Translations under genes and position numbers: made by a program | From: Siphonodentalium dalli | Lineage: Eukaryota > Mollusca > Scaphopoda > Gadilida > Siphonodentaliidae | Direction of reading: 5' to 3' | Assembly: GCA_032622095.1 (NCBI GenBank) | Contig: CP136063.1 | Location: 76,301,980-76,365,979, forward strand | Length of the DNA: 64,000 nt | Part shown: positions 19,351 to 39,890 of the stretch, in pieces | Layout of the letters: every line of letters starts with the position of its first letter | Position numbering within the stretch: the first letter of the stretch is position 1 | Notes under the pieces: model-generated | The model's database searches: none | What the model was told of the DNA's origin: nothing | What the model saw: only the letters and a program-made list of their open reading frames with translations

Positions 19351-20297
19351 ACAGGGGTATGAATCCTGAATACCGACTAACAGTGGGGTATGAATCCTAA
19401 ATACCGACTAACAGTGGGGTATGAATCCTAAATACCGACTAACAGTGGGGTATGAATCCTAAATACCGACTAACAGCGGGGTATGAATCCTGAATACTCA
19501 CTAACAACGTGGTATGAATCCTGAATATCGATTAACAGTGGGGTATGAATTCTGAATACCGACTAACAACGTGGTATGAATCCTGAATATCGATTAACAG
19601 TGGGGTATGAATTCTGAATACCGACTAACAACGTGGTATGAATCCTGAATATCGATTAACAGTGGGGTATGAATTCTGAATACCGACTAACAACGTGGTA
19701 TGAATCCTGAATATCGATTAACAGTGGGGTATGAATTCTGAATACCGACTAACAACGTGGTATGAATCCTGAATATCGATTAACAGTGGGGTATGAATTC
19801 TGAATACCGACTAACAGCGGGAAATGAATCATGAATACCGACTAACAGCGGGGTATGAATCCTAAATACCGACTAACAGCGGGGTATGAATCCTGAATAC
19901 CGGCTAACAGCGGGGTATGAATCCTGAATACCGACTAACAGCGGAAAATGAATCATGAATACCGACTAACAGCGGGTATGAATCCTGAATACCGACTAAC
20001 AGCGGGGTATGAATCCTGAATACAGACTAACAACGGGAATGAATCCTGAATACCGACTAACAGCGGGATATAAATCCTGAATACCGACTAACAGCGGGGT
20101 ATGAATCCTGAATACAGACTAACAACGGGAATGAATCCTGAATACCGACTAACAGTGGGGTATGAATCCTAAATACCGACTAACAGCGGAAAATGAATCA
20201 TGAATACCGACTAACAGCGGGTATGAATCCTGAATACCGACTAACAGCGGGGTATGAATCCTGAATACAGACTAACAGCGGGGTATGAATCCTGAAT
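19351..20297. repeat. 31-bp minisatellite with a 62-bp higher-order block
   Basis: About 30 units of TACCGACTAACAGCGGGGTA-type sequence. From 19501 to ~19810 five 62-bp dimers (starts 19501, 19563, 19625, 19687, 19749) alternate two unit types, showing later amplification of a pair. It lies in DEPTOR intron 2 and ends 76 bp from the exon 2 donor. Single related units occur at ~19030, 33380-33430 and 40145-40180. Confidence 0.92.
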
Positions 20298-33312: not shown

Positions 33313-33780
33313 TTCGCTATATTTCACATATTATGGGATATGGGATTATATGATACCCTACATGAGGGTATCAACCCCTCCCCCTGAATCCTGAATACCA
33401 GTTAATTGGGGGGGGGGGTGAATCCCGAATACATGTTAAGAAATAATATGCGATAAATGACATGCAAATTGACTGTTTTAATATCAGACAGATACAAGCA
33501 GAAGTTACATAGACACATTATTATCCATTATACCTGACATGATATTGGAGTAGAGTATTTGTGATACTATAATTTGACGAGATACAATGACAGGTTAATC
33601 TATTAAGGGTAGGTTATCCTTAACGGTGTGTGATTATTTTTATGTTTCTATAGATTGACAATATAAAAACTTCCTCCTTAACCCTTTCTATACTGGAACA
33701 TCATTAATTTATGAGTAGTTATCCCACAGGAAATGTTCAAAAATAAGTTCAACAAACGACCAAAGGGTCGTTTGTTGAAC

Positions 33781-33848
33781 GTCTTCCCTCCACTGAATAA
33801 ATGACGACAAAACACCTTTTGCATACTAGCCGTACGAGCTCTCTAGAA
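33781..33848 (-). repeat. Split direct repeat B2 (3' terminus)
   Basis: 68 bp, identical to B1. Its outer edge at 33781 touches the palindromic MITE sequence GTCGTTTGTTGAAC and marks the element's 3' boundary. Confidence 0.95.
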
Positions 33849-34190
33849 ATTTATTTGATCACATACATGTATCATATACAGACAAGACCTGACCACCAAC
33901 AATTTTACATATAAATCCCCAGTTGCGACAGCAGACACGCCGGACAGAAAAAACCGCCTTCCAATTTGTTTTATGTTTTTTAAGGCGGAAATCTGTGAAC
34001 CAACCCAACGGGTGCGAACTCTGTCTACAGGGAAGGCGGTGGTTCTCACCTTTTACATTACACGGTATATATTCTAGAAATGTTCTATGTCTGAACTCAA
34101 ACATTCATACTTAGACACCGATTTTCATAAATAAATTTCGAACGAAATTATAAAACCGTTATCGTGAATATATTGTAAAATATTTCGTAT
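33849..34190 (-). other. 342-bp segment between A2 and B2 of the retrotransposon
   Basis: An AT-rich stretch lying inside the element's 3' arm. Overlapping ORFs of 68 and 81 codons exist, but neither resembles the SGNH-hydrolase ORF found in some Ngaro elements. It is probably non-coding. Confidence 0.6.
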
Positions 34191-34395
34191 TTTAGAAACT
34201 TGATGACCGTACCTCGTTCGCTAGAAAGTGACGCTCTGGCATTGAACACGTGACATGCGAAATCAGAAACTCATCTCTGATTGGCCCTCACTGTCACGTG
34301 TTCAGTAAACAACTTTACTATCCCCGCCCATTTATTAACCCGTATCGTTCAAGACAAATGTTTTTCGCTATACTGCGAAACTCGAAAAACTATTA
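34191..34395 (-). repeat. Split direct repeat A2 (internal)
   Basis: Identical 205-bp copy of A1. It directly abuts B1 at 34395/34396, so the B1-A2 junction has the same sequence that would form if the two element ends were joined in a circle. Confidence 0.95.
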
Positions 34396-34463
34396 GTCTT
34401 CCCTCCACTGAATAAATGACGACAAAACACCTTTTGCATACTAGCCGTACGAGCTCTCTAGAA
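34396..34463 (-). repeat. Split direct repeat B1 (internal)
   Basis: 68 bp, identical to B2 at 33781-33848. It lies 163 bp past the stop codon of the recombinase ORF and directly next to A2. Confidence 0.95.
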
Positions 34464-34626
34464 CATGTCCAAAAGCACAGGTAGTAACTTTCATTATAAT
34501 ATGAATGTTTGAATCAGTAACCTAATGGAAAAACATCCAAAATTAAATTCCATTTGAAATTTAAATTGCCAAACTCGAATGGAAGAATTGACTATATCTT
34601 ATTAAATCAATTTGTAATGCGATGAT

Positions 34627-35640
34627 TTATAACCCCAATTTTTTAGACACTTCCAGTCTAGATTGTAGTGAATCTTCCACATAGCCATCCTTGGCTGATT
34701 CACTACGCCATCTTCCATGACGTTTGAAACATCTGTCATTGACGCCCGCGTTCGCTGCGGTCGTAGCCCCACCAGCCCTCAAAGAATGAGTACCGATATT
34801 GGCCACAGGCGAAACCTCCCTCAGTCGGGCTATTATACATTCCCTTGCCCTTGTGTAACTTATTGGTTTGTCTTTATAAACCAATTTGCACACAATTCCA
34901 GAACGAAATACACCTCGAAACAAATGAACATCACATTTTGTGGTCAGGTCTGCACTTGATAAATATTTAACCAACCATGCTACTGGACAAGCACATGTTA
35001 ACCCCTTGCTAATTACCACTTCTGCTCCTGATCTGTACTGATCAGTCTTGCTCCTTCGGATCTTTATCGATAAATAATCATTATGAATAATTATGTCATT
35101 TGCCTTTAGAGCTATGAGCTCTCCAAATCTCATGAACGCTGCATAACATACAACAATCATTGTTATATCTCTAATAACCAACAAATCTGTGCTTTCCCTG
35201 TACATTGAACAAAGTGTGATAATTTCCTCCGAAGAAATAGGATCTTTACGATTTACTGGCTTTGAAAACAGACGTTTAGACGACTCTATTAAATTGTCTA
35301 TGAAAACATTGTCAGTTGGATCGCTGAATCCGTGCAAGCCATGCATCCATTTGATTGCATATTTTACAGAAATAATCACATTATGAGAAACACCTCTGTC
35401 CATTAAATGTGTGATACACAGAGCTATATGAACTGGCTCCGCTGGCATAATTTTGCCGCCAATGTTTTTAACAAAGTCCTCCCATTTCCGAAAAGCTGAC
35501 CTGTATTTCACAGTAGTGTTGTCCGCCCTCGATTTAACCAGATAGCCTGCCATATGAGCCGAAAGTTCCTTCAATTCGCCATTCATTCCTAGACCGCTAT
35601 CCTTTACATTTTGCTCTATTGAGGCTTGAACACCTGTCAA
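34627..35640 (-). CDS. Tyrosine recombinase of the DIRS-order element
   Basis: 337 codons. The N-terminal half is a SAM-like core-binding domain (YRSAFRKWEDFV, ITHLMDRGVS). The catalytic domain shows R171 (AAFMRFGEL), a likely beta-hairpin Lys at 198 (RRSKTDQ), H285 and R288 (GTHSLRAGGATTAA), H308 (FKRHGRW) and the nucleophile Y320 (SAKDGYVED). All RHRH-Y residues are present, so the enzyme looks functional. In this order it replaces the DDE integrase of LTR elements and inserts a circular cDNA. It lies in a different frame from the pol tail. Confidence 0.95.
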   Translation of the reverse strand: MTGVQASIEQNVKDSGLGMNGELKELSAHMAGYLVKSRADNTTVKYRSAFRKWEDFVKNIGGKIMPAEPVHIALCITHLMDRGVSHNVIISVKYAIKWMHGLHGFSDPTDNVFIDNLIESSKRLFSKPVNRKDPISSEEIITLCSMYRESTDLLVIRDITMIVVCYAAFMRFGELIALKANDIIIHNDYLSIKIRRSKTDQYRSGAEVVISKGLTCACPVAWLVKYLSSADLTTKCDVHLFRGVFRSGIVCKLVYKDKPISYTRARECIIARLREVSPVANIGTHSLRAGGATTAANAGVNDRCFKRHGRWRSESAKDGYVEDSLQSRLEVSKKLGL

Positions 35641-35677
35641 AACATATAGATCTCATTAATATACAAAGCAACAATTG

Positions 35678-36097
35678 TCACAGGCTGCGATTCTTACTGA
35701 ATTTCAGTGCTCCCATTTCAAATGGAAGTGGATTGTTTAAGAAGAACCCATTGTTTCCATGGCCTTCCGATATCAATCCCCTGCACCCCAAACTAATCAA
35801 CTGTACTGCCTCCGTGGCTATCAAATTAGCTATTTTTGGCCAAAAATTGCCTGAATACCAAATAGGGAACACCAATGTTCCCTCGGCTTTGTCTGAAACC
35901 ATTTTATTGATTGTTTTTTTAATCATCTTGGGTGGTGGCACCCGCCAATTATTATCTCCCGACCAATCTTGGGAAAATGCGTCTATAGCTTCTGTCCCTG
36001 GACACCACCATTTTGAATTGAAACAGTCTAAATTCTTATTATAATCACAAGAAAATCGATCAACTGTGTAAGGACCCCCATTTCCGGTCCAACATAA
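35678..36097 (-). pseudogene. C-terminal part of the element's pol in a shifted frame
   Basis: After the T run that ends the main ORF, the +1 frame is open for about 140 codons. It carries the Trp- and Pro-rich region that follows RNase H in DIRS/Ngaro pol proteins as I recall them: FNSKWWCPGTEAIDAF, then VPPPKMIKKTI, then GTLVFPIWYSGNFWPKI. The stop is at 35678, 37 bp before the recombinase ATG. The break could be a real mutation, a programmed +1 shift, or a base-call error in the homopolymer. The tail itself looks intact. Confidence 0.8.
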
Positions 36098-38837
36098 AAA
36101 ACGTATCTTTGCAAATTTTCCAGTCGTCTGAATCTGAACATTTGCTCAACCTGTCTGCCTGAGTGTTTTCCTCTCTAGGAATCCACGTAGGCAACAGCTT
36201 GATGCCATGTGAAGAACAGACATCCGATATATCCAGCGCCACTCGCTGCAAGTGTTCCATTCTACTACCGACTTTGGCTATTTGAGCTGCCGCTTTATTA
36301 TCGGTATACCATGTTATACGCTCCCCTTGTAATGTCGAACCTTTCGATGCGCAATATCTATGCATGGCTTCCAGTTCGCGCCAAGTTGAACTCAATCCAA
36401 CTTCCGTCTCTGACCATGACCCTGTCACTTCAGAACCGAGCACCCCTTCCGAATACCCACCGTATCCGAAACTTGATGCATCGGTAAACACACTTCCAGT
36501 GTTATCTGGACTTACCAAGTCCTGACCATTCAACGACTGAATGTTTTCCCGCCAAAACCTCAACTCCGCTGAGGCCTCCTGCCCAACGGGCACCAACGCG
36601 TCCCAACTAGCTCTGTAAGCTAACGCGCCGTATATGTATCGACTCTTCAGTCTAACCACGCTATCCACCGCGCCGTGCATCGATAATAACTGGCCGCTGA
36701 TGGCCGCTAGCGCTCGCGCTTTCGCGAAACCGTTTTGTTCAATAACCAATTTCTCTATGCTGATTATTGCCCCGATGAAACGGCGAACCCTTTCCCCCGA
36801 CACAGATACTCTTCCTGAGTCCATGTCCCAATCCAAACCGAGCCACTTGATCTGCGAAATTGGAATCCAAACGCATTTCTTATAAGAAATAAGAAACCCC
36901 AAACTTATCAAATCATTCTCGACCATTCTACTCAATTCCATCGCCCTCTTGACCCCTTTGGCTCCCCCTAACCCGTCGTCCAAATACATGACAACTTTGT
37001 GACCTTGTGACCTCCAAAATTTAGTGACTACTCGCATTAATTTTGTAAAAATGTGAGCAGCTACTGAAATTCCAAACGGAAGAACATTATACACATAATA
37101 ATCTGTTCTACCTGACGAAACCGACGTCCATGCGAATCCCAGATATGTTCTGTACGATTCCCGTATCTCTATTATATGGTAAGCACTTTTCAAATCAAAA
37201 GTAAACATCAAATCTCCTTTCGAAAATAATTCCCTAGCCACCTCCCCGTTCTCCAAACGAAATTTAAACTTCGCGAGATTTGGATTTATGTGGCGGCAAT
37301 CCAGTACCAATCGCTTTTTTCCCTCCCTATTACAAGCAACCGTTAAAGGATTTACTACTTCCGGTTTTTCCGATACCCGTGCAATGCAATCTAAACTGAT
37401 CAGTTTACCGATTTCTTCCGAAACGAAATCTTTATTTTGCAAAGCCGATCTATTGTTCTTCATCTCGGAAGTCTGGGGTATACTTATAAAAGGCAGCTTG
37501 TAGCCCTCGCTAACGATTCCTTTTATGTAATCAGACGCACCTAAATGCTCCCACCGAGCGTAACATTCCTTCAAACGCCCCCTTGGGCTTTGCGAGCTAT
37601 GATACTCGACGCGATCTATTCCGATCTGCCGACCGACCTTCGCGTTACACGGCCTCTGACCAATTTCCATTTCGTCTGAATCTCTGGCCGTAAGCTCTCC
37701 GTCGAGCAAGCACCCAGTGCTTTTACTTAAACCCCTTAAACTGAGGGTTTCCGATATTAACTCGCTTTCCGCGTTGACAATAGCGCTCCGCGTTGAAGCG
37801 ACTCCTTTGTTTACACAAGCATTTGCTTTGTCGCCTGAATTACCAACGCTGTGAACATCTACAGTCACGCCTGACTGCACGCCTACCGCTTCCGATTTGC
37901 CCACGATTGATCCGCTATGCGTCTCGACCACTACCGCTTCTGGTATAATACGACAACCCGTGTTATCTGAATTACTGTCAGAATGAACAATTTTTAGCAT
38001 ATTCATTTCCTCGCCGCTGACCGACCGCCGCTCGACAATGCTATCTTTTGTCGATTCGCCTGAATTACACACCGTGTGTTTACCTTTCAACGGTCGTGCT
38101 AGCGCTGTTTTCGAACCGGTGTTATTGTTCTCGTTCGCGAACTCGCTTCGCGGTACCCCCTGCCCTAATAAACTAAGATATATTCTACTTATCTTTTGGT
38201 TTGTGGCAGCCGAGAACCGCTTGTCACATTCGTTTTTCCAGTGCCCTGGAACCCCACACGCAAAGCAAAGTCCTGGCTTCCTGCTAGGCTGTTTGACCCC
38301 TCCGCCAACCGCTGCTGGGTTATGAGACGCAGTTGTCGCCGAAGAAACTGAAGTTCTGGAAATTTTCCTCTTCTTCGCTTTCTGCTGTGCCCTCGCCTCC
38401 GCTTTGTGTATACGCTTCTCGTCTTCCGAATCAGAAGCCAGCTGATTGCCCTCGTATTCTCCTACGACTCGCCATCCCAATTCTGATGAATCTGCCAATT
38501 TAATCAGCTTCTGTCTGTGATTGAGCAAGTCCATACCTGACTTAAGTGCATCTGAAGCTGCATCGGTAGCTTCGCTCAGTTCCGCTGATGCGAGATGCTT
38601 TTGGGCCTCTCGTATCTTCCCCATGACTTTGTTATTCAGGTTATGTTGTTCTTCATGTGCCGTTTTCTTGAATTTGAACGTTTCTTGAGGCGGCACTGCT
38701 GCTTCCTCTCTTGGTGCAGCTCCAGCAACTAGCTTGCGGTCAATAAGCTTTGCTAAGCTTTTTAACAGATCGGTCTGCGATTCCCTGATGGCGTCGCTTA
38801 TTTTTGCGTCGACGTCCATTTTGTGAAAACTCAGCAA
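36060..38837 (-). CDS. Gag-like / reverse transcriptase / RNase H polyprotein of the DIRS-order element
   Basis: A 925-codon ORF. Residues ~7-160 are a charged Gag-like region with ADSSELGWRVVGEYEG and LASDSEDEKRI, typical of DIRS-like Gag as I recall it. A CCHC zinc knuckle is at C191, C194, H199 and C204. RT spans ~470-680 with the motif A Asp at 548 (FTFDLKSAYH) and YLDD at 618-621. RNase H has D786 (FTDAS), E821/E823, D846 (WYTDN) and D895 (QADRLSK). The first ATG is 3 bp inside A1; the second, at residue 7 (MDVDAK), is the more likely start. The frame ends at 36060 because of a T run (plus-strand A run near 36096); homologous coding sequence continues in another frame to 35678. Confidence 0.93.
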   Translation of the reverse strand: MLSFHKMDVDAKISDAIRESQTDLLKSLAKLIDRKLVAGAAPREEAAVPPQETFKFKKTAHEEQHNLNNKVMGKIREAQKHLASAELSEATDAASDALKSGMDLLNHRQKLIKLADSSELGWRVVGEYEGNQLASDSEDEKRIHKAEARAQQKAKKRKISRTSVSSATTASHNPAAVGGGVKQPSRKPGLCFACGVPGHWKNECDKRFSAATNQKISRIYLSLLGQGVPRSEFANENNNTGSKTALARPLKGKHTVCNSGESTKDSIVERRSVSGEEMNMLKIVHSDSNSDNTGCRIIPEAVVVETHSGSIVGKSEAVGVQSGVTVDVHSVGNSGDKANACVNKGVASTRSAIVNAESELISETLSLRGLSKSTGCLLDGELTARDSDEMEIGQRPCNAKVGRQIGIDRVEYHSSQSPRGRLKECYARWEHLGASDYIKGIVSEGYKLPFISIPQTSEMKNNRSALQNKDFVSEEIGKLISLDCIARVSEKPEVVNPLTVACNREGKKRLVLDCRHINPNLAKFKFRLENGEVARELFSKGDLMFTFDLKSAYHIIEIRESYRTYLGFAWTSVSSGRTDYYVYNVLPFGISVAAHIFTKLMRVVTKFWRSQGHKVVMYLDDGLGGAKGVKRAMELSRMVENDLISLGFLISYKKCVWIPISQIKWLGLDWDMDSGRVSVSGERVRRFIGAIISIEKLVIEQNGFAKARALAAISGQLLSMHGAVDSVVRLKSRYIYGALAYRASWDALVPVGQEASAELRFWRENIQSLNGQDLVSPDNTGSVFTDASSFGYGGYSEGVLGSEVTGSWSETEVGLSSTWRELEAMHRYCASKGSTLQGERITWYTDNKAAAQIAKVGSRMEHLQRVALDISDVCSSHGIKLLPTWIPREENTQADRLSKCSDSDDWKICKDTFFMLDRKWGSLHS

Positions 38838-38839
38838 TA

Positions 38840-39044
38840 TTTAGAAACTTGATGACCGTACCTCGTTCGCTAGAAAGTGACGCTCTGGCATTGAACACGT
38901 GACATGCGAAATCAGAAACTCATCTCTGATTGGCCCTCACTGTCACGTGTTCAGTAAACAACTTTACTATCCCCGCCCATTTATTAACCCGTATCGTTCA
39001 AGACAAATGTTTTTCGCTATACTGCGAAACTCGAAAAACTATTA
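38840..39044 (-). repeat. Split direct repeat A1 (5' terminus)
   Basis: 205 bp, identical to A2 at 34191-34395. The outer end (plus strand ...AAAACTATTA) is the element's 5' boundary. It contains a pair of CACGTG-centred words (GAACACGTGAC and GTCACGTGTTC) in inverted orientation that may act as promoter or recombinase sites; this role is inferred. Confidence 0.95.
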
Positions 39045-39360
39045 TTATTATCTGAACATTTCCCTCAATACATTTGACTCAATCTTCACTTTTAATGTTT
39101 TTCGTCTGCTTATTTTACCTGAACACCCCTCAAAATCAATGATAAGCTACTCCATTGTATACTTTTATAACTGGATGGGAGAGTTCATTTAGTTGATAAA
39201 GGGTTAAATAAAGTCCTGGTATGTCTTGTTAAATTTGACAGTTCTACCATTCCGTGTACGAGAAGTTGTGGCTGCTGATGCTGCCATTCCTATCATCACG
39301 TTGTTGACAACCGCAACCGGCATGTCTTCTTCTGAGTCATCTGAAATGTATACCTACCAC

Positions 39361-39890
39361 AAACGCCAGGATATCTTGCCCCACCTACCCATTCCCAAAC
39401 AAAATTTCACTGTTTCCTAGGTGCTTGCCGGGATATCTTGTCCCACCAGATTCACAAACAAAAATCAACACCCCCCCCCCTAGACAAAAATTGGACAGAA
39501 TTCTGTTCCCTAGGCCCCCGAAAAAAACGGACAGAATTATGTTTCCTAGGCGCTTGCCATGATATCTTGCCCCACCCGTTCCCAAACAAAATCACCCCCC
39601 CCCCCTCCCCCAGAAAAAAATGTACATAATTCTGTTTCCAAGGCGCTTGCCAGGATATCTTGCCCCACCCATTCCTTAAATTTATTCAACCCTTCCCCAC
39701 ACCTAAAAAAATGGATAGCACTCCGCTTCCCAGGATATTTTGCCCCACCCGATTCACAGAAAAAAATTCAAGCCCCCCCCCCCCCCCCACGCCAGAACAA
39801 AATCGGGGAGCATTTTGTTTCCTAGGCGCTTGCCAGAGTATCTTGCCCCACCCGTTCTCAAACAAAATCACCCCACGCGCGAAGTCGGAA
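39361..39890. repeat. Minisatellite with poly-C tracts, ~6 units
   Basis: GCGCTTGCCAGGATATCTTG-type words at ~39367, 39425, 39552, 39643, 39732 and 39827, each followed by CCCCACCC and a C run of up to 16. Unit spacing is 60-125 bp. Confidence 0.8.

Follow-up and report, generated by a model that had tools for sequence, protein, structure and literature searches.

The window, a stretch of 64,000 nucleotides from the scaphopod Siphonodentalium dalli, carries at positions 33781-39044 on the minus strand what is very probably a young copy, not fully intact, of a PAT-like retrotransposon. Its unspliced RNA would be both genome and polyprotein mRNA, its spliced RNA would yield a fusion of Gag with a tyrosine recombinase (YR), and its insertion would occur by recombination at a repeat junction. 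The first-pass annotation passed over the main point, namely that the YR lies behind a splice acceptor and, as far as the sequence can tell, seems to be produced as a fusion with Gag. We ascribe this fusion to splicing because the donor and the acceptor are conserved and a spliced copy of a sister family is present in the genome.

Structure of the element

The bounds of the element are exact, since its flanks, when joined, equal uninterrupted copies of a repeated palindrome. The parts, all read on the minus strand, follow each other in the order A1, gag/RT/RNase H/Dam-like domain, YR, B1A2, spacer, B2. The left terminal repeat A1 (38840..39044, 205 bp) begins with TAATAG, its end being set by the empty-site match. 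The internal repeats B1 (34396..34463, 68 bp) and A2 (34191..34395, 205 bp) adjoin each other and are followed by a 342-bp spacer (33849..34190), found in short derivatives too, and by the right terminal repeat B2 (33781..33848, 68 bp), which ends in GGGAAGAC. The repeats are perfect, as had been claimed: A1 and A2 agree at 205/205 positions, B1 and B2 at 68/68. Together with the empty-site match, this identity gives good support to the view that a DIRS-order element bearing split direct repeats inserted here recently. Its terminal repeats run in direct orientation, unlike the inverted ones, with an internal complementary region, of DIRS1-like elements; four inverted pairs were listed, none of which joins the ends of the element. 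A scan of the window against Rfam at the gathering score gave no match.

The gag-RT-RNase H frame (36060..38840) measures 926 aa from stop to stop, with its first Met at 38819, and contains a CCHC zinc knuckle in Gag (zf-CCHC, 4.4e-5), a reverse transcriptase with the YLDD motif noted earlier (RVT_1, 7.2e-16) and a weakly matched RNase H (RVT_3, 0.12). This frame stops at 36060, and the Dam-methyltransferase-like domain that follows (35681..36085, delimited by an alignment of 11 members) is in a different, overlapping frame (36145-35678). The ORF listing and comparison with another copy, L001, place the break of the pol frame at 36060..36145, where the two frames overlap; L001 is open across this region, but its YR is broken. 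The earlier description of the window copy as complete and almost intact therefore holds only in part; in addition, the YR ORF has no ATG where its conserved part begins. With its pol frame broken, the window element could not be active on its own.

Putative exon 2 (34627..35633, stop codon included) encodes a tyrosine recombinase (Pfam Phage_integrase, 9e-8) instead of a DDE integrase, no family of which appeared in the Pfam scan. All five catalytic residues reported earlier are present, although their numbering in the ORF is shifted by four (R175, H289, R292, H312 and Y324 instead of R171, H285, R288, H308 and Y320), and the R, H, R, H, Y set is invariant across 13 aligned YR sequences. The structural model has a mean pLDDT of 85 and matches Cre (PDB 1ma7) in Foldseek with 1.5e-11; exon 2 is predicted from it to encode the whole Cre-like fold. 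When viral contigs were searched with the YR alignment, 24 pattern matches and no relative were obtained.

Splice signals and spliced genomic copies

Putative exon 1 (38537..38819) comprises Gag residues 1-94 and the first base of the Gly-95 codon. The putative intron (35634..38536, 2,903 nt), which reads G|GTATGG ... TTTTGACAG|GTG, contains the remaining part of gag, RT, RNase H and the Dam-like domain. In an alignment of 50 loci, the donor codon is GGT in 46 of 47 cases where glycine is encoded; L065 has GGC, and L086 has no Gly codon. The next invariant Gly column (n = 50) is divided among GGA (21), GGT (15), GGC (8) and GGG (6). The same was seen after clustering at 80% identity, which left 21 clusters: GGT occurs in 18 of the 19 Gly clusters at the donor codon, and the next invariant Gly column shows GGA 7, GGT 6, GGG 4 and GGC 4. 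The donors depart from the usual GTRAGT. The alignment omits the near-duplicates L025 and L030 (both GGT), L036, where the homologous region was not found and a different phase-1 donor is present, L026, L028, L034, L035, L038 and L039, with gag decayed or not found, and L087, which was read separately.

At the YR start, the acceptor is a pyrimidine-rich YAG, in phase 1 in 37 of 39 loci after correction by eye. The script had given 32/39; in several rows its choice of AG was wrong or its frame was off, and those sequences were read by eye, whereby six rows scripted as phase 2 proved to be phase 1 beside the site, with a more distant indel in three of the six. The two exceptions are L096, with a 1-nt shift (scripted as phase 1 at a wrong AG), and L039, in phase 0. 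The latter belongs to a divergent family (L039, L047 and L087) in which the acceptor is in phase 0 and no donor stands out, and TGT is found at the donor codon in L047 and, read apart from the alignment, in L087.

In L048, a member of a sister family, the donor of that family is joined to the acceptor to the base; 2,651 nt, homologous to the putative intron of the window copy, are absent and the A and B repeats are kept. Among the 116 matches listed, the junction is spanned at three places on C5. L108 and L109 are further spliced copies with shared flanks; they are likely local duplicates and, because the flanks are shared, may stem from one event. Spliced copies were seen at one place and in one family only. 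Matches at other loci also run past the junction, at 69-76% identity; among them are L021, L050 and L051, the sequence of which is unspliced. Splice-junction patterns for three families (the window family and those of L029 and L022) revealed no spliced copy: two of the searches had no match at all, and the remaining one gave 3-mismatch matches only. Of these there were 11, six of them the unspliced acceptor, and the reversed control gave 10.

Insertion site, integration targets and other copies

The element interrupts a common palindromic host repeat. Its 5' flank (39045..39063) comprises the outer portion of the palindrome's left arm, and its 3' flank (33729..33780), recognised from the inverted repeat listing and the joined-flank matches, is the rest of it (GTTCAACAAACGACC-CTTT-GGTCGTTTGTTGAAC and beyond). 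The joined flanks were matched by 40 scored sequences among 1,487 candidates. In all seven uninterrupted target repeats that were fetched, the sequence continues across the insertion point without an added or missing base, hence there is no target-site duplication, as is usual in the DIRS order. When the targets of 17 insertions were compared with the B|A junction of the element, 108 of 221 positions matched, a score raised by A+T-rich flanks, as against a mean of 62 (sd 6.7, maximum 75) at 49 other offsets; the window insertion itself matches at 4 of 13 positions. Judged by these counts, the sites of integration are similar to the B|A junction of the element itself, which is what one would expect of a site-specific recombinase.

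The genome search proposed earlier returned further copies, several of them little decayed, and so neither a lone copy nor a wholly decayed family. L001 (C7), the closest uninterrupted copy among those fetched, differs from the window element by 19 mismatches and 11 gap columns over 5,263 ungapped positions of a pairwise alignment. Elements of this order had been called rare, which does not apply to this genome: at least 120 YR matches were obtained, 118 of 1,310 first-look candidates having been scored. The genome also holds many sister families and short A-spacer-B derivatives, 12 of which were found in 11 of 20 loci. These could come from the recombinase or from ordinary recombination between A1 and A2, in the manner of solo LTRs, and we favour the ordinary route.

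Discussion

From these results, the following mechanism may be proposed. Unspliced RNA would be the genome and the mRNA for a single Gag-RT-RNase H-Dam-like polyprotein, while a fraction of the RNA would be spliced from a presumably weak donor in gag, after residue 94, to the acceptor at the YR start, giving the Gag N-terminus fused to the complete Cre-like recombinase. Following reverse transcription, its two ends would come together in a circle, the B|A junction of which would equal the internal B1|A2 junction, and the recombinase would join this junction (AAGAC|TAATAG|TT) with loosely similar genomic sites, producing an insertion without target duplication. We give an even chance to the broader claim that, in most of the lineage, a spliced subgenomic RNA encodes the integrase as a fusion of Gag with the recombinase, and that the Gag N-terminus, common to Gag-Pol, carries the recombinase into the particle: a retrovirus-like plan of independent origin for a Cre-type integrase.

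One alternative for the expression of YR is that a small nearby intron, which would measure 64 nt in the window copy (TTCA|GTAAGA to TTTTGACAG|), fuses it to the pol end. The window family does have a GTAAGA donor 64 nt upstream of the acceptor and, as counted by eye, the frames would be joined in phase 1. However, this intron is not kept in sister families, GTAAGA being in the wrong phase in L022 and L036 and missing from the stretch inspected in L024 and L037, and it is the gag donor, not the local one, that is used in the spliced copy L048; we prefer the gag donor and consider the local intron very improbable. It is more improbable still that splicing plays no part, with internal initiation, readthrough or frameshifting giving access to YR and L048 being a plain deletion. 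Such an account would agree with the rarity of genomic spliced copies and with the Met found about 28 residues into the YR exon in many families, but the coding similarity of YR begins at the acceptor, upstream of that Met, and the frame relation between the pol end and YR varies between families whereas the acceptor phase hardly does. Moreover, the ends of a plain deletion would need to coincide exactly with the two splice sites, and the freezing of GGT at the donor codon would be left without explanation.

As to classification, the element looks PAT-like rather than Ngaro-like, as judged by its features. It has the split direct repeats and the Pat1-like zinc finger in Gag, along with the DIRS-order features of RT with (weakly matched) RNase H, a tyrosine recombinase and no target-site duplication. 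An Ngaro-like element, with split direct repeats and no methyltransferase, is an unlikely alternative: at a threshold of E 10 the domain of the window member matches neither Pfam Dam nor PHROG_111, a phage DNA methyltransferase family, as this alternative would have it, yet at the same threshold 6 of the 11 aligned domains match Dam (best 3.2e-4) and 4 of 11 match PHROG_111 (best 8.7e-6). The model of the domain is of low confidence (pLDDT 64), and its fold matches, mostly to SAM methyltransferases, are weak (E 0.02 or worse); a PDB profile search gave no sequence match. All 11 aligned sequences carry VPPP at the motif site, where active Dam-type methyltransferases have an NPPY-type motif.

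The type of element is known, and the new point would be the way in which YR is expressed. Introns have been mentioned for some DIRS-group elements. In the portions of the DIRS-order literature that were available, the recombinase is placed in separate or overlapping ORFs. Literature searches, mostly at listing level and without the papers of Goodwin and Poulter, found no description of splicing in YR retrotransposons, including in the available parts of PMC4157794, PMC9210276, PMC8547959, PMC3266345, PMC3212892, PMC6681497, PMC5633606 and PMC2685390. To the question of recombinase production and delivery in DIRS-order elements, a conserved splice pair with an intron-less genomic copy offers a concrete, testable answer. 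If it is true, splicing would govern how much RNA serves as genome and polyprotein message relative to how much encodes the recombinase, and would attach the recombinase to Gag. The integration specificity of such enzymes can likewise be tested directly, given the clean empty site and a target motif that resembles the junction.

The echinoderm-form, Pat1-like PAT elements, as described in the available part of PMC4157794, share with this lineage the split direct repeats, the Gag zinc knuckle, RT, RNase H and what may be a methyltransferase-like domain before YR, with no internal repeats between the last two. The lineage differs from them in its degenerate methyltransferase motif (11 of 11 aligned sequences), in gag and pol sharing one frame where open, and in the conserved gag-to-YR splice sites; no mention of such sites was seen in PMC4157794, where a text search gave two hits on splicing, both unrelated, and none on introns. 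Ngaro-like elements (PMC9210276 and PMC8547959, in part) have in common with it the A1-[ORFs]-B1A2B2 repeats, RT/RH and YR, but the present lineage has a putative Dam-related domain separating RNase H from YR. Nor does the window copy have room for the SGNH hydrolase ORF known from amphibian Ngaro elements, because no ORF of at least 90 aa follows YR inside it on its strand.

The proposed plan also has a counterpart among LTR retroelements, with the difference that here the spliced product would join the N-terminal part of Gag to the enzyme of integration. In LTR retroelements, spliced subgenomic mRNAs such as that for retroviral env likewise use a donor in gag or the leader, the unspliced RNA being kept as genome and gag-pol mRNA; spliced RNA is also reported for BARE. 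With Cre the recombinase appears to share the two-domain fold, and its catalytic set, R-H-R-H-Y, is that of Cre; whereas Cre acts on loxP sites, the enzyme of the element appears to use loosely similar genomic sites.

Structure and copies of the element

The element occupies 5,264 bp of the minus strand (39044 to 33781) and consists, in this order, of A1, gag, RT and RNase H in one frame, a Dam-like domain, the tyrosine recombinase (YR), B1, A2, a 342-bp spacer and B2. In the window copy A1 does not differ from A2, nor B1 from B2, and B1 directly abuts A2. These are split direct repeats, the internal B1/A2 junction being the product of joining the two ends of the element. In the genome (2.23 Gb, 9 contigs) each of these parts has at least 40 matches, 40 being the number scored among 226 candidates for A, 82 for B and 102 for the spacer. 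Among the 20 loci fetched for the copy survey, A was found at both ends of the element in six (L001, L002, L003, L005, L006 and L007), two (L004 and L008) held partial elements, and L020 held B only. Aligned with the window copy, that in L001 shows 19 mismatches and 11 gap columns. The window copy has a broken gag-pol frame and an open YR, and the reverse is true of L001 (gag-pol open, 1,085 aa; YR broken). The remaining eleven loci (L009-L019) carry twelve short A-spacer-B elements, about 615 bp long if undeleted, that share both ends with the full element and are the split-repeat counterpart of solo LTRs. Two of these, near-identical and in inverted orientation, lie 659 bp apart in L010:378-2266, with distinct inner flanks.

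The YR query gave at least 120 genome matches of 100% to 39% identity (118 of 1,310 candidates scored), and several groups with near-equal scores were seen among the matches listed. Nineteen loci of such sister families, some closely related to each other, were fetched. The family of L029 and L030, whose gag-pol frames are 1,164 aa long, has nine YR matches of near-equal score among the matches listed, at 52% identity to the window YR, and is apparently a recent expansion. Beside a sister element, a short tandem repeat of WSMDGEHLVYGRRTLGLWTENT (L047:4114-5017) has three open frames, which extend over 253 to 273 codons.

Probable splicing between gag and the recombinase

A sister-family locus, L048 (C5:229687300-229690500), reads ...GGATACAAGAAG|GCTTACGATCGG..., while L021, an unspliced member of the same family, reads GGATACAAGAAG|GTATCGAA on the donor side and TTTTTGACAG|GCTTACGATCGG on the acceptor side. 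In L048 the two sides of the family are joined to the base, with 2,651 nt absent, and the A and B repeats are retained, A1 partly. Its sequence is strong evidence that an RNA was spliced from the gag donor to the YR acceptor and then reverse transcribed. Two further spliced copies, L108 and L109, lie within 34 kb of L048; since L108 and L109 have flanks in common, the cautious view is that a single event was later duplicated locally.

The putative donor lies in a Gly codon, GGT, at Gag residue 95 (window protein numbering), which would be cut as G|GT in phase 1. The alignment of this position covers 50 gag loci: L047, 11 taken from the element loci, and 38 windows picked from 150 gag-match rows. 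The residue is present in 49, is Gly in 47, and is encoded by GGT in 46 of these 47. An invariant Gly 20 alignment columns downstream in the same loci is encoded by 21 GGA, 15 GGT, 8 GGC and 6 GGG. When clustered at 80% identity (21 clusters), 18 of the 19 Gly clusters have GGT at the donor, and the top codon share at seven other conserved four-fold columns, counted once per cluster, is 0.31 to 0.59. With GGT making up 97 of 310 Gly codons in the aligned gag pieces, a simple binomial estimate, which ignores kinship between clusters, puts the chance of such a share at the donor at about one in 10^8. The exceptions are L065 (GGC), L086 (CTT), and L047 with its relative L087 (TGT). As the donors are mostly GTAT or GTTT and not GTAAGT, we infer that splicing is inefficient and, as in retroviruses, leaves unspliced genomic RNA.

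On the acceptor side, the conserved YR coding of the sister families starts at a pyrimidine-rich YAG, without a start codon; the pol frame, where open, stops shortly upstream, in a frame that varies. The 39 loci compared comprise 19 with elements, the window among them, and 20 windows picked from 120 YR-match rows. By script 32 of the 39 are in phase 1, and 37 once the doubtful ones had been read by eye; the exceptions are L096, shifted by 1 nt at the acceptor, and L039, in phase 0.

The same sites in the window family give a predicted intron of 2,903 nt (38536-35634, minus strand) between putative exons 1 (38537-38819) and 2 (34627-35633). From the splice site onward, exon 2 yields a structure model (mean pLDDT 85) matching Cre over both domains (E 1.5e-11), and as modelled it codes for the whole recombinase. 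Predicted exon 1 contributes 94 Gag residues and one split codon, and such a common Gag N-terminus would bring the recombinase and Gag-Pol into one particle. No description of gag-to-YR splicing was found in the open-access literature searched.

Integration sites

Both ends were read for 17 insertions, and their joined targets were compared with the element junction AAGAC|TAATAG|TT over 13 positions each, with 49 other offsets as control. Matches were found at 108 of 221 positions (other offsets: mean 62, sd 6.7, maximum 75); for the 6-nt core at 21 right ends, 51 of 126 match (other offsets: 37, sd 4.7, maximum 47). These counts fit an enzyme that recombines the junction of the circle with genomic sites loosely resembling it. 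The window insertion is among the poorer junction matches (4/13).

Its joined flanks (112 nt) match a repeated palindromic host sequence (at least 40 copies; 40 scored of 1,487 candidates). All seven copies fetched (L040-L046) run through the insertion point without gain or loss of a base, the sole indel falling elsewhere in the repeat; the element thus inserted within a long palindrome without target duplication. The host repeat (window 33729-33780 and 39045-39063) is of high copy number and contains a long, near-perfect palindrome with arms of 33-34 nt, read by eye, and a 4-nt loop. Adjoining the element, 39365-39883 holds six diverged copies of a unit with GCCAGGATATCTTGCCCCACC at a spacing of 62 to 129 bp; elsewhere in the window, a 31-bp unit forms a tandem array of 30.6 copies (19354-20297).

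Classification

The element adds a new member to an already known order. At the family level we label it PAT-like by features alone, tentatively, because the methyltransferase evidence is that of sister copies, of which, at a threshold of E 10, 6 of 11 match Pfam Dam and 4 of 11 PHROG_111, and because the methyltransferase-like motif is VPPP in all 11 aligned sequences. By its repeats, zinc knuckle and Dam-related domain, the element is closest to the echinoderm form of the PAT-like group.
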